64,000 nt of DNA, taken from NCBI RefSeq assembly GCF_000242915.1, contig NZ_AFRZ01000001.1, positions 496,001 to 560,000 on the forward strand, in the 5' to 3' direction. Under the pieces are notes generated by a model. The model saw only the letters and a program-made list of their open reading frames with translations. It made no database searches and was not told where the DNA came from. Positions within the stretch are counted from its first letter, which is position 1. Each line of letters opens with the position of its first letter. This DNA comes from Sulfurimonas gotlandica GD1. GTDB taxonomy: Bacteria; Campylobacterota; Campylobacteria; Campylobacterales; Sulfurimonadaceae. Below are positions 23,068-29,551 of this stretch, piece by piece. A program made the position numbers and the translations under genes.

Positions 23068-23958
23068 ATGAAATCAATCATTCATATAGGGGGAAATAAA
23101 ACAGCAAGTACCCTCTTTCAACGCAGACTCTTTTCTAAACATCCAAAAATTGGATATATGGGTGAAGACTGTGAAAACTATGCGGATATTAATAAATATA
23201 TACAGATTCTTGTTCATGAAGATGAATCTGTATATAATGAAAATATTTCACTTGAAATAATTAACTCAATAAAAAACAACAAAGAAATTTTTATTTTTTC
23301 TAATGAAGATATTATGGGAACACGTCATCCTAGTGTATGTGCTAGAAGATTAAAAAAGATTCTTCCAGATGCTCAAGTTATTATGGTAATGAGAAATCAA
23401 AGAACAACCTGGGCTTCATGGTATGTAAATCATGGTGCATTTTTAAAATTAGTACCAAAGGACTATTGGAAAAAATATGTTTCTTTTAAAGAATGGCTGA
23501 GCTATTCTTTCTCATTTCCATATATTACCCCCCTAGAAGCAATGAACTATGAAAGATACTATAATATTTTTAAAAATTCTTTTGGTGAAAAGAATGTACA
23601 TGTTTTTCTGTATGAAGATTTTATACATAATGCAGAATATTTTTACTCTCAGTGGGGTGGAGTGTTAAATATGTCTAATTCTGAAATCAAGTCATATCTT
23701 GATGGTTTCAGAGAGAGAACAAGTATTACTTCATTCCAATTTAAAATTCATCAAATCAGTAAAACAAGTGTTATATTAAGTAAGGTATTAAATATAATAT
23801 TTAGAAATTTTCTAGATAATGAAGTTTCAGCTAAGGTAAATATTCCTGTTGAGTTTGAAGATAAAATTTCAAACTATTATGCTTCTGGCAACACTAAACT
23901 AGAAACAACATTAGGTCTAGAATTAAAAAAATATGATTACCCTCTTGAATCAAAATAA
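23068..23958 (+). CDS. PAPS-dependent sulfotransferase
   Basis: A 296-residue sulfotransferase-family protein. The 5'-phosphosulfate-binding loop is IHIGGNKTASTLFQRRL (residues 5-21, with K11 and T12). The 3'-phosphate-binding element is VMRNQRTTWASWYVNHG, with R109 and S117. There is no signal peptide, so it acts in the cytoplasm on a nucleotide sugar or lipid-linked glycan. The same operon encodes CysD, CysN, two APS kinases and CysQ, making a complete PAPS supply and PAP disposal. The acceptor is unknown. I consider the sulfotransferase call strong because motifs and context agree. Confidence 0.85.
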   Translation: MKSIIHIGGNKTASTLFQRRLFSKHPKIGYMGEDCENYADINKYIQILVHEDESVYNENISLEIINSIKNNKEIFIFSNEDIMGTRHPSVCARRLKKILPDAQVIMVMRNQRTTWASWYVNHGAFLKLVPKDYWKKYVSFKEWLSYSFSFPYITPLEAMNYERYYNIFKNSFGEKNVHVFLYEDFIHNAEYFYSQWGGVLNMSNSEIKSYLDGFRERTSITSFQFKIHQISKTSVILSKVLNIIFRNFLDNEVSAKVNIPVEFEDKISNYYASGNTKLETTLGLELKKYDYPLESK

Positions 23959-23968
23959 AGGATAAATA

Positions 23969-25093
23969 ATGAAAACTATACCAAATATTGGCCCATGGAT
24001 AGGGGACTTTGAAAAAGAAACTGTAAATAAGGCAATGAGTGATTGGTATGAAAATCCATATTATTACTGTGAATTATTTGAAAAAGAATTTGCAAAATAT
24101 CATGATAGAAAATATGCTTTAATGACTCCAAATTGTACATCAGCTATTCATTTACTGATGCTTGGGCTAGGTATACAAGAAGGAGATGAAGTTATAGGTC
24201 CAGAGTGTACTTGGATAGCTTCAGTGGCACCAGCATTTTATCAAAAAGCAAAAGTAGTTTTGTGCGATATTGATGAAACAACATGGTGTTTAGATCCAAA
24301 ATCTGTAGAAAAAAACATTACAAATAAAACAAAAGCCATTGTTTCTGTTAACTTATTTGGAAATATGGCAAACTGGAATGAGTTACTTAAAATATCTAAA
24401 AAATATAACATTCCACTTATTGAAGACGCTGCTCAGTCACTTGGTTCTACTTATAAAGGAATCAAATCAGGTAAGTTTGGTATTGGATCAGTATTTAGTT
24501 TTCATAGAACTAAAACATTAACAACTGGTGAAGGGGGTATGCTTTTAATTGATGATGATAAACTTTACAAAAAATGTAAGATGTTTAGAGATCATGGTAG
24601 AAATGACAATGATCCTATGTATTTCAATAGTGAAGTAGGATATAAATATATGCCTAATAATATTAGTGCTTCATTAGGTTACGCTCAGTTTCAAAGATTA
24701 GATGAATTAGTATCTAAAAAGCATTGGATATTACAACAATATTCAAAAAGGTTAAATGTCATTGATGACATAACCTTAAATTACGAACCTGAATATGTTT
24801 ATAATAGTGCCTGGATTACTACAATAGTCTTAGGTAGAAGCATTCAAATTAAGAAGCAGGATTTTATTGATAAATTAATAAGTAAAAATATAATGGCAAG
24901 ACCATTTTTCTATCCATTATCTAGCATACCAGCACTAAATAAAAGAGGTTATATTGAAGAAGAACATAAATTAAAAAATCCAATGGCATATGATTTATCT
25001 TCAAGAACAATCAATTTGCCATCCCCACTAAATATTACAGAAGAACAAATAGATTATATTTGTAATGAGATAAAAACTATTTTAATGAAATAG
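23969..25093 (+). CDS. DegT/DnrJ/EryC1 family sugar aminotransferase
   Basis: A 374-residue PLP aminotransferase. The PLP lysine is K182 in [17 protein letters not shown], preceded by [15 protein letters not shown]. The [14 protein letters not shown] form is shared with perosamine synthase and PseC-like 4-aminotransferases, while the N-terminus [13 protein letters not shown] is family-typical. It probably aminates a 4-keto-6-deoxyhexose nucleotide. It begins 10 bases after the sulfotransferase, with AAGGATAAATA as ribosome site. One of four DegT-family enzymes in the window; the specific sugar is unknown. Confidence 0.8.
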
Positions 25094-25104
25094 TTAATTT
25101 AAAT

Positions 25105-27485: not shown

Positions 27486-28210
27486 TGTTTAAAGAGACAA
27501 ATGCTCGTTCACTATTTAAAGGTATAAGCTGGAGAATATTAGCTACAACCACAACAATTATATTAGTTTATATGTTCTTTAATAGACTTGATTTAGCAAT
27601 AATAGCTGGCATAATTGAAACAATTTTAAAAGTTGCTTTATATTGGGGTCATGAAAGAGTTTGGCATAAAATAAGGTGGGGTAAAAAGAGGATAGAACCT
27701 TTTAATCTCTGGTTTACCGGGTTACCTCTTAGTGGAAAAACTACAATTGCTGATGCAGTTTTCAAAGAATTAAACAAACTTCAAATACCAATTGAGAGAC
27801 TTGATTCAAAAGATATTAGAGATGTTGTTCCTGATATCGGCTTTAGTAGAAAAGATAGAAATATACATATGAAAAGAATAGGACATCTAATAAAAACACT
27901 TCAAAATAATTCTATATCAACTGTTGCTTCATTTGTTAGTCCATATAGAGAATCAAGAAAAACAATCCGAGAAATGGTAAAAAATAATATTGTAGTCTAC
28001 ATAAAAGCAAATATTGAAACCTGTAAAAAAAGAGATAGAAAAGGAAAATATGAAAAAGCCACAAAAGGTGAATATCAAAATTTTACAGGTGTAAATGATA
28101 TTTATGAAGAACCGCAACATGCAGAGATAACAATCGACACAGATAAGCTTTCAGTTGATGAAGCAACTAAAATAATTGTAAAATATGTAAAAAAGAATTA
28201 TGTTAAATGA
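27485..28210 (+). CDS. DUF2061 membrane domain fused to APS kinase
   Basis: A 241-residue two-domain protein. Residues 1-70 match DUF2061: RSLFKGISWRILATTTTI, then an A-x-x-A-G-I-I-E segment, KVALYWGHERVWHKIRWG, with one or two membrane helices. Residues 72-240 are an APS kinase with Walker A GLPLSGKTT (79-87), SFVSPYRESRKTIREM and FTGVNDIYEEP. Normal CysC has DGDNVR after strand 2; here it is LDSKDIRD. It should phosphorylate APS to PAPS at the membrane. Together with the soluble CysC next door (4-base overlap) it suggests PAPS made beside a membrane-bound glycan assembly site. Catalytic activity is inferred. Confidence 0.85.
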   Translation: MFKETNARSLFKGISWRILATTTTIILVYMFFNRLDLAIIAGIIETILKVALYWGHERVWHKIRWGKKRIEPFNLWFTGLPLSGKTTIADAVFKELNKLQIPIERLDSKDIRDVVPDIGFSRKDRNIHMKRIGHLIKTLQNNSISTVASFVSPYRESRKTIREMVKNNIVVYIKANIETCKKRDRKGKYEKATKGEYQNFTGVNDIYEEPQHAEITIDTDKLSVDEATKIIVKYVKKNYVK

Positions 28211-28806
28211 GCAATAATATAGTTTGGCATGATTACCATATAAAAAAACTACAACGAGCTAAGCAAAAAAAACAAAAATCTTGCATATTGTGGTTTACAG
28301 GACTAAGTGGAAGTGGAAAATCCACACTGGCAAATGCTTTGGAAGTTAAACTTTATGAACTAAACTTTCATACTTATTTACTTGATGGAGACAATGTAAG
28401 ATATGGACTAAATAAAGATTTAGGATTTGATGAAAACTCAAGAGTTGAGAGCATAAGGCGAATAGGTGAAGTTTCGAAATTATTTATTGATAGCGGTATT
28501 ATTACATTAACAGCTTTTATATCACCTTTTATTAAAGATAGACAGATGGTAAGAGATTTAGTAGAGGAAAATGAATTTATAGAAATATTTGTGGATACTC
28601 CTCTCTCAATTTGTGAGGAGAGAGATCCAAAAGGATTATATAAAAGAGCAAGAGATGGTGAAATACAAGAATTTACTGGGATCAGCTCCCCATATGAAAA
28701 ACCAGACAATGCTGAAATACATATTTTAAATGCTGAATTAACTATAGAACAAAATATAGATAAAATAATATTATATTTAAAAATAAATGGATATATAAAT
28801 GCTTAA
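28207..28806 (+). CDS. cysC: adenylyl-sulfate (APS) kinase
   Basis: A 199-residue classical APS kinase: Walker [12 protein letters not shown] (from residue 32), LLDGDNVRYGLNKDLGF, RRIGEVSKLFIDSGII, AFISPFIKDRQMVR, and EERDPKGLYKRARDGEI, then EFTGISSPYE. All substrate-binding stretches are canonical, unlike the fused homologue upstream. It converts APS and ATP to PAPS. It overlaps the fusion gene by 4 bases and cysQ by 8. Confidence 0.95.
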   Translation: MSNNIVWHDYHIKKLQRAKQKKQKSCILWFTGLSGSGKSTLANALEVKLYELNFHTYLLDGDNVRYGLNKDLGFDENSRVESIRRIGEVSKLFIDSGIITLTAFISPFIKDRQMVRDLVEENEFIEIFVDTPLSICEERDPKGLYKRARDGEIQEFTGISSPYEKPDNAEIHILNAELTIEQNIDKIILYLKINGYINA

Positions 28807-29551
28807 AAAAATAAACATTAAAGATATAAAACAAATAGCTTTAAAAGCTGGTAAGGCTATTATGGATATCTATGAAAAAGATTTTACAATAGAATATAAA
28901 GATGACAATTCTCCGTTAACAGAAGCTGATTTAAAATCAAATAAAATAATTTGTGATAGTTTAAAAAAGCTTTACCCAGAAATTCCTATACTCTCAGAAG
29001 AAAATAAAGAAGTTTCATACAGCATAAGAAAGAGTTGGGAATATTATTGGTGTATAGATCCAATTGATGGAACAAAAGAATTCATTAAAAAAAATGATGA
29101 GTTTACAGTAAACATTGCATTAATATGTAAAAATATACCAGTTATTGGTGTAGTTTATGCGCCAGCACTTAAGTTGATGTATTATTCAAAGCAAGGATAT
29201 GGAGCATATAAAAATAATATTAAACTTCCAATTGAAAGAGAAGATAATAAATTGATTATAGTTGCTAGTAGATCTCATATGTCAGATGCAACTCAAAAGT
29301 TTGTGGATAATATAAAAACTGAGAAAGAGAAAGAGCTTATCTCAATAGGCAGTAGTTTAAAACTTTGTTTAATTGCTGAAGGAAAAGCAGATATATACCC
29401 AAGATTAGCACCTACAATGGAGTGGGACACTGCTGCTGCTCATGCAATTATATCTGAATCAGGGAAAAGAGTAGTGTTAAATGATGATATTAATCAAGAA
29501 TTATATTATAATAAGACAAATTTATTAAATGCTTGGTTTATTGCCAATTAA
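28799..29551 (+). CDS. cysQ: 3'(2'),5'-bisphosphate nucleotidase
   Basis: A 250-residue inositol-monophosphatase-family protein. Metal-binding motifs are LSEENKEV and DPIDGTKEFI (central), plus EWDTAAAHAI near the C-terminus, all diagnostic of CysQ. It removes the 3' phosphate from PAP, the by-product that inhibits sulfotransferases, and can also control PAPS. Its position next to cysC supports a dedicated sulfation pathway. It is followed by the only gap of over 50 bases in this half of block B (29552-29605). Confidence 0.93.
   Translation: MLKKINIKDIKQIALKAGKAIMDIYEKDFTIEYKDDNSPLTEADLKSNKIICDSLKKLYPEIPILSEENKEVSYSIRKSWEYYWCIDPIDGTKEFIKKNDEFTVNIALICKNIPVIGVVYAPALKLMYYSKQGYGAYKNNIKLPIEREDNKLIIVASRSHMSDATQKFVDNIKTEKEKELISIGSSLKLCLIAEGKADIYPRLAPTMEWDTAAAHAIISESGKRVVLNDDINQELYYNKTNLLNAWFIAN

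Follow-up and report, generated by a model that had tools for sequence, protein, structure and literature searches.

Gene content and layout of the predicted sulfation operon

The system considered here is a predicted sulfation operon of Sulfurimonas gotlandica GD1, whose genome consists of one contig of 2,952,682 bases; bases 496001-560000 of this contig, a stretch of 64,000 nucleotides (nt), constitute the window to which gene coordinates refer unless the contig is named. The core of the operon (23068-29551) combines a putative sulfotransferase gene with genes for the supply of 3'-phosphoadenosine 5'-phosphosulfate (PAPS) via adenosine 5'-phosphosulfate (APS) and for the disposal of 3'-phosphoadenosine 5'-phosphate (PAP), and the operon is predicted with considerable confidence to sulfate a deoxysugar-containing surface glycan.

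Seven genes make up this core, all of which were found open and on the plus strand in a check of open reading frames (ORFs). The first (23068-23958) encodes a predicted PAPS-dependent sulfotransferase, which is of the carbohydrate type by its fold, and is followed by the gene of a DegT/DnrJ/EryC1 sugar aminotransferase (23969-25093; PF01041 324.8 bits, under the cut-off of all NCBIfam models listed). The next two genes encode ATP sulfurylase, namely its small subunit CysD (25105-26025; NF009214 503.8 bits vs a cut-off of 413, TIGR02039 over cut-off) and its GTPase subunit CysN (26025-27485; NF003478 678.7 vs 590, TIGR02034 over cut-off), the latter free of a CysC fusion, with no PF01583 match. 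Subsequently, a gene at 27485-28210 encodes a DUF2061 membrane hairpin joined to an APS-kinase domain with an intact P-loop (PF09834 over cut-off; PF01583 146.4 vs 21.1; TIGR00455 164.4 vs 138.7), which according to residue counts is devoid of the proposed catalytic-base aspartate. The canonical APS kinase CysC (28207-28806; PF01583 226.9 bits, TIGR00455 265.7 vs 138.7), which features the motifs GLSGSGKS and LDGDN, and the PAP phosphatase CysQ (28799-29551; TIGR01331 289.7 vs 228.8, though under the cut-off of the other CysQ model, NF008182, with 238.2 vs 379) complete the core. Gaps of 10 nt between the sulfotransferase and DegT genes and of 11 nt between DegT and CysD are followed by overlaps of 1 nt (CysD/CysN), 1 nt (CysN/27485), 4 nt (27485/CysC) and 8 nt (CysC/CysQ). 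Coordinates and strand agree with the initial annotation, as do the family matches apart from a marginal one of the sulfotransferase and the particular nature of 27485; the annotation had described seven co-directional genes, almost all touching or overlapping, inside a glycan island.

The operon as a whole probably extends over 13 plus-strand genes (19973-31520), flanked on both sides by minus-strand gene blocks in which many genes are glycan-related. Its probable first gene (19973-20536, +) is an ORF whose product, judged by its sequence an RmlC-type dTDP-sugar 3,5-epimerase, shares blast cluster 4 with the window protein of 13953-14525 and with similar proteins at other cassette loci. Between it and the core lie genes for an FAD-dependent oxidoreductase resembling L-2-hydroxyglutarate oxidase (20550-21755, +; PF01266 165.9 bits, NF008726 341.4 vs 299) and a sugar C-methyltransferase of the Methyltransf_13/14 type (21812-23038, +; PF08421, PF08484). 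Downstream of the core, an S-adenosylmethionine-dependent methyltransferase (29606-30223, +; PF08241 32.8 bits), an FdtA/WxcM-type 3,4-ketoisomerase (30204-30584, +; PF05523 108.7 bits) and an NAD-dependent sugar epimerase/dehydratase (30588-31520, +; PF01370 119.3 bits) are encoded. No plus-strand terminator-like site was found after 21887 in the scanned region 19700-31700, an observation of little weight given a scan total of 4 vs a mean of 3.5 in shuffled sequence; in general, the promoter and terminator scan yielded no excess over shuffled sequence.

PAPS supply and the separate reductive branch

The only two strong APS-kinase matches of the genome are the 27485 and 28207 genes of the operon, a third PF01583 match being a stretch of 42 residues at 20.5 bits. 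Likewise, the only Sulfotransfer_3 match of the genome is the 23068 gene, and the only Sulfotransfer_1 match lies within the operon as well. Elsewhere, at about 2.534-2.541 Mb of the contig, a second cysD-cysN pair adjoins cysH and a sulfite-reductase-like gene, so that a cysH relying on the cysDN of the operon as the sole ATP sulfurylase, which would have counted against the initial annotation, is absent; this answers the genome-wide check proposed with that annotation. The order of genes at this site is stand-alone DUF2061, cysH, cysD, cysN, a gene of the sulfite/nitrite-reductase family and, by translation, a cysK-like gene, and no cysC occurs within the cysH-cysD-cysN cluster. The best model for the sulfite-reductase-like gene is ferredoxin-nitrite reductase, with every listed model under cut-off, and its identity as a sulfite reductase rests on its neighbourhood. 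A fourth PF01507 match of the genome lies at contig position 1820785 (23.8 bits).

In PMC4584964, cysC and cysDN of S. gotlandica are read as the PAPS branch of assimilation. On this reading, PAPS from the operon would feed assimilatory reduction as a second, PAPS-dependent route to sulfite. In its favour, CysH also exceeds the general cysH models NF002537 (272.3 vs 154) and TIGR00434 (173.2 vs 165.1), which are both named phosphoadenylyl-sulfate reductase, and enzymes of that type accept PAPS in some bacteria. On the contrary, CysH (contig 2539887-2540411, outside the operon) passes the cut-off of the APS-reductase model TIGR02055 (249.7 vs 235.3) and falls short of that of the PAPS-reductase model TIGR02057 (148.4 vs 254.2), its cluster possesses its own cysDN and no cysC, and the PAPS genes are grouped with the sulfotransferase and sugar genes; a PAPS-type CysH was found neither in the operon nor linked to it. 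Moreover, in Table 3 of PMC7952632, five of 11 Sulfurimonas (NW10, S2-6, NW8N, OK10 and GYSZ_1) are entered as having CysC and CysDN but lacking both CysH and CysI, so that CysC persists even in the absence of reduction. A use of the operon's PAPS in reduction is therefore highly improbable.

For GD1 itself, the same table gives two CysC, two CysDN, CysH and CysI, and the article regards Sat, CysC and CysDN as an incomplete assimilation pathway in NW10, with the same holding for the other Sulfurimonas except GD1. Since the reductive branch needs, by its predicted enzymes, only APS, and since the genes for PAPS all stand beside a sulfotransferase, PAPS is most simply taken to be made for sulfation. 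Hence, the gene content bears out an operon that would both make PAPS and clear PAP, as initially annotated, and we think that the readings given in PMC7952632 and PMC4584964 should be revised.

The sulfotransferase

In a profile search, the 23068 protein scored 26.6 bits against Sulfotransfer_3, just under the cut-off of 27 (27.9 bits in a six-frame search including neighbouring stretches), and gave no NCBIfam match at E 0.001. The initial annotation of 23068-23958 as a sulfotransferase is thus marginal by profile and draws its support from the predicted fold, which matches sulfotransferases. Close relatives of the protein are few: no relative was found among PDB sequences (the sole match, at E 0.59, bears an unrelated name), none among nine pattern matches in viral contigs, and no match in plasmids and phages. 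As a consequence, the underlying alignment A2 is small, comprising eight very divergent sequences, and the AlphaFold model built from it is of middling confidence (predicted local distance difference test, pLDDT, 71.8; predicted template modelling score 0.73).

In VIA-align searches with this model, the top match was the sulfotransferase 3rnl (Z 16.6 over 220 residues, root-mean-square deviation 3.9), followed by heparan-sulfate N- and 3-O-sulfotransferases with Z 14.5-15.9. A similar order emerged from Foldseek, in which 3rnl was best (E 3.9e-8) and entries of NDST1 and 3-O-sulfotransferases came next (E 6.7e-6 to 8e-4). All eight rows of the alignment share R109 and S117, and K11 is lysine in seven of eight, the 23068 protein counted, and arginine in the remaining one (L067). 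These are the expected PAPS-binding positions, K11 being presumably the lysine of the 5'-phosphosulfate loop and R109 and S117 the arginine and serine that bind the 3'-phosphate. Judged by model and conserved positions, the protein is most likely a PAPS-dependent sulfotransferase.

A transfer of the sulfonate group to protein tyrosine or to a small molecule instead of a glycan is conceivable, as bacterial tyrosine sulfation by RaxST with RaxPQ is known, and as tyrosylprotein sulfotransferases match the model at Z 11-12, overlapping in Foldseek from E 6e-5, and two sulfotransferase domains of olefin/curacin synthases at Z 12.7-12.8. The heparan-sulfate types rank higher than these tyrosylprotein types and than the cytosolic ones (Z about 9-11), and the neighbours are sugar genes, which makes such a substrate very unlikely and a glycan the more likely predicted one; this ranking has to be read in the light of the middling model and of a best match, 3rnl, that carries no stated substrate.

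The DUF2061-kinase fusion

The 27485 gene encodes a protein of 241 residues in which two helices (2-32 and 35-65) precede a kinase domain (model pLDDT 76.2) that matches solved APS kinases with E values down to 2e-34. In CysC of Mycobacterium tuberculosis, the second aspartate of the LDGD loop is the proposed catalytic base, and its counterpart in the mouse APS kinase was reported to be essential (PMC4373884). In the 27485 protein, this place is occupied by K109. Two overlapping sets of 29 and 80 fusion homologues, in which several loci represent the same contigs, feature lysine at this place in 27/29 and 73/80 members and arginine, serine, threonine or asparagine in the others, with aspartate in 0/29 and 0/80. 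On the other hand, all fusion homologues retain the P-loop GK[T/S], R112 and R125; S152 is found in 28/29 and 80/80, and the aspartate on the magnesium side, D107, in 29/29 and 79/80, while the neighbouring D110 is aspartate in 28/29 and 73/80 and glutamate or asparagine in the remainder.

Because the P-loop and the other residues are kept and the base aspartate is absent, the kinase domain probably binds nucleotide, and the protein does not appear to be a standard APS kinase. The two APS kinases of the initial annotation are hence to be divided into a canonical one (28207) and a protein (27485) which passes the family cut-offs and is nevertheless a DUF2061 fusion without the base aspartate. 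In principle, D110 could serve as a replacement base, in which case 27485 would constitute a second, active and membrane-anchored APS kinase, in line with the conservation of the P-loop, D107, R112, R125 and S152. This is a doubtful possibility in view of the replacement of the base-equivalent residue, essential in the mouse enzyme, in every member of both sets, and of the company that the fusion keeps. Among 397 Campylobacterota genomes, the window genome included, 31 carry a fusion gene (the PF01583 and DUF2061 searches return the same 31), and 30 of these also keep a CysC of canonical score (PF01583 of at least 197 bits, by score alone); the exception, G224, has only a CysC match of 93 residues after the fusion gene. 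This count and all counts of PF01583 and canonical-score genomes below hold among the matches listed.

Distribution and association with sulfotransferases

The initial annotation had considered a sulfated surface glycan unusual for the phylum. This is not supported, as the fusion occurs in 31 and a canonical-score CysC in 71 of the 397 genomes. In the literature, as far as covered, no title dealt with the sulfation of glycans in Campylobacterota. Any PF01583 match is present in 200/397 genomes, which is not a count of APS kinases: the weaker matches (about 100-126 bits, mostly families f2 and f3) may, we presume, be Cj1415-type kinases. The usual order of the cassette is cysD-cysN-fusion-cysC-cysQ, with cysQ-cysC-cysD-cysN-fusion as an alternative, for instance at L048, L052, L055, L066 and L143, and some cassettes are disrupted or truncated where the contig stops. 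Sets of rml-type genes (blast clusters 4-7) lie nearby in up to 15 of 40 loci (L041-L080).

Beyond the phylum, a scan of a collection of species genomes returned 169 stretches that encode a relative of the fusion. The titles of the best 80 of these 169 include Gammaproteobacteria (Methylophaga, Cycloclasticus, a Methylococcaceae, a Piscirickettsiaceae and others) as well as Bacteroidota (Crocinitomicaceae, Flavobacteriales). Most of these records are metagenome-assembled genomes, for which single binning errors are possible; the record of Methylophaga thiooxydans DMS010 carries no such label.

Sulfotransfer_3 (E<=0.001) occurs in 20/31 fusion genomes vs 24/366 others (odds ratio 25.9, Fisher p 3e-14, uncorrected for kinship). 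With kinship likewise ignored, it is found in 33/71 genomes with a canonical-score CysC vs 11/326 others (p 3e-19), and in 13/41 that have a canonical-score CysC and no fusion vs 31/356 (p 1e-4). When Sulfotransfer_1 or Sulfotransfer_3 is considered at E<=0.01, 26/31 fusion genomes contain a match, and in 16/31 (14 without two weak matches) it lies within 20 kb of the fusion on the same contig, by coordinates read by eye.

The CysD tree comprises 104 rows (84 cassette loci, those without a fusion included, and 20 cysH-linked) and requires 6 label changes vs 18.7 in shuffles. The CysD of the window falls among cassette CysDs, and the housekeeping CysD of the same genome belongs to a clade, supported 100/95, whose 12 rows are all cysH-linked. 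The split is not clean: the cysH-linked L168 and L171 stand inside the cassette clade of the window, and the positions of L169, L173 and L177 among the cassette rows are not resolved.

Several observations, in addition to the CysH matches to the general models, weigh against glycan sulfation as the purpose of the cassette. The 23068 sulfotransferase itself is rare, with matches in 2/396 other Campylobacterota genomes at 24% identity. Moreover, five of the 31 fusion genomes (G367, G224, G273, G199 and G004) are devoid of Sulfotransfer_1/3 at E 0.01, 15/31 show no sulfotransferase match on the same contig at a distance of up to 20 kb (short contigs are numerous), and 11/44 Sulfotransfer_3 genomes lack a canonical-score CysC.

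From the sequence, which provides the gene identities, the layout, the separate reductive cluster, the confinement of the genome's APS kinases to the operon, the conservation and the association, we infer the following order of reactions, acceptor and role of the fusion. CysD and CysN would convert sulfate to APS, from which the canonical CysC would form PAPS. The 23068 sulfotransferase would then transfer the sulfonate from PAPS to a sugar, and CysQ would remove the product PAP, while the C-methyltransferase, DegT, FdtA and epimerase genes would serve the building and tailoring of the acceptor sugar. The likeliest role of the fusion would be that of a conserved membrane accessory, which ties the sulfate supply or APS to the sulfation machinery on the membrane side.

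Comparison with known systems

Genes for sulfation in polysaccharide clusters are already known from Vibrio sp. KMM 8419 (PMC11641403) and Cobetia marina KMM 1449 (PMC11766843), for which structures of sulfated capsules have been published. These polysaccharide clusters resemble the present operon in comprising cysD, cysN, cysC (and cysQ in Cobetia), sulfotransferases and dTDP-rhamnose genes. They differ in belonging to Gammaproteobacteria and in showing no DUF2061-kinase fusion in the described parts of the clusters; in addition, Cobetia has a sulfate permease in its set, and its cysN/cysC is bifunctional. The Campylobacterota operon extends this known type to a further phylum and differs by a single component. 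This component, the DUF2061-kinase fusion, is also the new one, as no description of it was found as far as the literature was covered, DUF2061 being mentioned once each in four articles; the rest of the cassette is of a known kind.

The initial annotation had likened the layout to rhizobial nod genes. The logic of NodP/NodQ/NodH, in which an ATP sulfurylase, an APS kinase and a sulfotransferase are devoted to the modification of a saccharide, is indeed shared. The architecture is not: NodQ is a CysN-CysC fusion, whereas the operon encodes a CysN of 486 amino acids without a kinase domain and a separate CysC; the gene of the DUF2061 fusion stands between the two, and that of CysQ follows. Another comparison is offered by the Cj1415-type kinase of Campylobacter, an enzyme of the APS-kinase family that likewise makes a 3'-phosphorylated donor for a capsule. 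The phosphoramidate pathway to which it belongs starts from CTP and glutamine phosphate and has no CysDN, unlike the operon with its CysDN and CysQ. An assignment of the operon to an O-methyl phosphoramidate (MeOPN) cluster was set aside on account of the presence of CysDN and CysQ; homologues of Cj1416-1418 were not searched for.

If the proposed function holds, cysC and cysDN in Sulfurimonas and relatives are to be read as a supply line for glycan sulfation rather than for assimilation, and sulfated coats may occur in quite a few of the chemolithoautotrophs that inhabit redox zones and vents. Moreover, the DUF2061-kinase fusion is singled out as a protein found in records of three phyla, in every examined copy of which the expected catalytic residue is replaced.

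DUF2061 as a possible domain of sulfate activation

DUF2061 is present in 103/397 Campylobacterota genomes, either stand-alone or as part of the kinase fusion. In the window genome, the stand-alone gene (L005:10518-10802, minus strand, about 2.5405 Mb) is located directly upstream of cysH. Among 20 further stand-alone loci, picked across the range of matches and each covering at most about 7 kb, 19 feature DUF2061 just ahead of cysH, cysD and cysN, the exception being L184; in 10 of these 19, cysK lies just ahead of DUF2061, and none of the 19 stretches contains a CysC match. The stand-alone form shares with the fusion the two-helix hairpin and conserved residues, and differs from it in lacking a kinase domain and in residing in a reductive DUF2061-cysH-cysD-cysN cluster. 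The residues common to both forms (R8, S9, K12, S15, W16, R17, T24, E45, K49, H56, E57, W60 and G66) are each present in no fewer than 19 of the 21 stand-alone sequences, namely L005 and all 20 loci with L184 among them, and invariant or nearly so on the fused side (alignment A1), while R58, found in 20/21 stand-alone hairpins, is often lysine in fusions. This conservation exceeds what a plain membrane anchor would need, and in Campylobacterota DUF2061 gives the impression of a domain that belongs to the sulfate pathway.

At CysC loci without a fusion, eight of which were chosen by us (L071-L078; L079 and L080, at contig ends, were left out), permease-type members of blast cluster 13 occur in six (L071, L073-L077). 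The member of L071 was scanned and represents an SLC13-like permease with CitMHS and TrkA_C domains. In L071 and L073-L075, the cluster 13 gene is directly flanked by cysN and cysC, and L072 has a different membrane protein at this position, which we take to resemble TauE; no cysN stands beside cysC in L076-L078. The 30 fusion loci L041-L070 contain no member of cluster 13, and no match is listed in L081-L160.

The conservation of the hairpin, the permease in or near the place of the fusion and the sulfate permease in the Cobetia cluster (PMC11766843) together motivate a role in sulfate entry or APS capture as a hypothesis. Accordingly, a speculative and rather unlikely proposal would regard DUF2061 as an unrecognised membrane module of sulfate activation, which would act alone, upstream of cysH, in the reductive branch and in fused form in sulfation, where it would occupy a transporter-type slot and couple sulfate entry or the capture of APS/PAPS at the membrane to glycan sulfation. 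A transporter function is opposed by Methylophaga thiooxydans (L095:8022-10723), in which the fusion stands beside a gene that we assign to the SulP family, with no cysDN or cysC in view, and by two SulP loci elsewhere in the window genome. Furthermore, fusions at L090, L096, L108, L154 and L157, as at L095, have no cysD, cysN or cysC in view, some of which crude pruning of ORFs may explain. A transporter function of the fusion is thus not borne out.

Surroundings within the glycan island

Just downstream of the operon, an IS3-like transposase pair (31901-33057, -), recognised by translation, suggests mobility of the island. Near this element lies an ORF of 304 amino acids (33416-34330, -), for which neither Pfam nor NCBIfam gave a match at E 0.001. 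The same window contains a PglB/STT3-type oligosaccharyltransferase (59776-61860, -), an ABC transporter combining membrane and ATPase domains (50308-52020, -) and a family-2 glycosyltransferase (61860-62666, -), which possibly form an N-glycosylation locus within the island. The acceptor of sulfation may be O-antigen, capsule or an N-linked glycan. At 12-15.4 kb of the window, rml-type genes are located (blast clusters 4-7). An unusual pair of domain combinations, a GNAT acetyltransferase with a cytidylyltransferase (40655-41887, -) and a GT28-C-like domain with GNAT (43659-45155, -), may be involved in nonulosonic acid synthesis. Finally, the glycan island also encodes an ATP-dependent DNA ligase (58978-59766, -) that carries a DNA_ligase_OB_2 domain.

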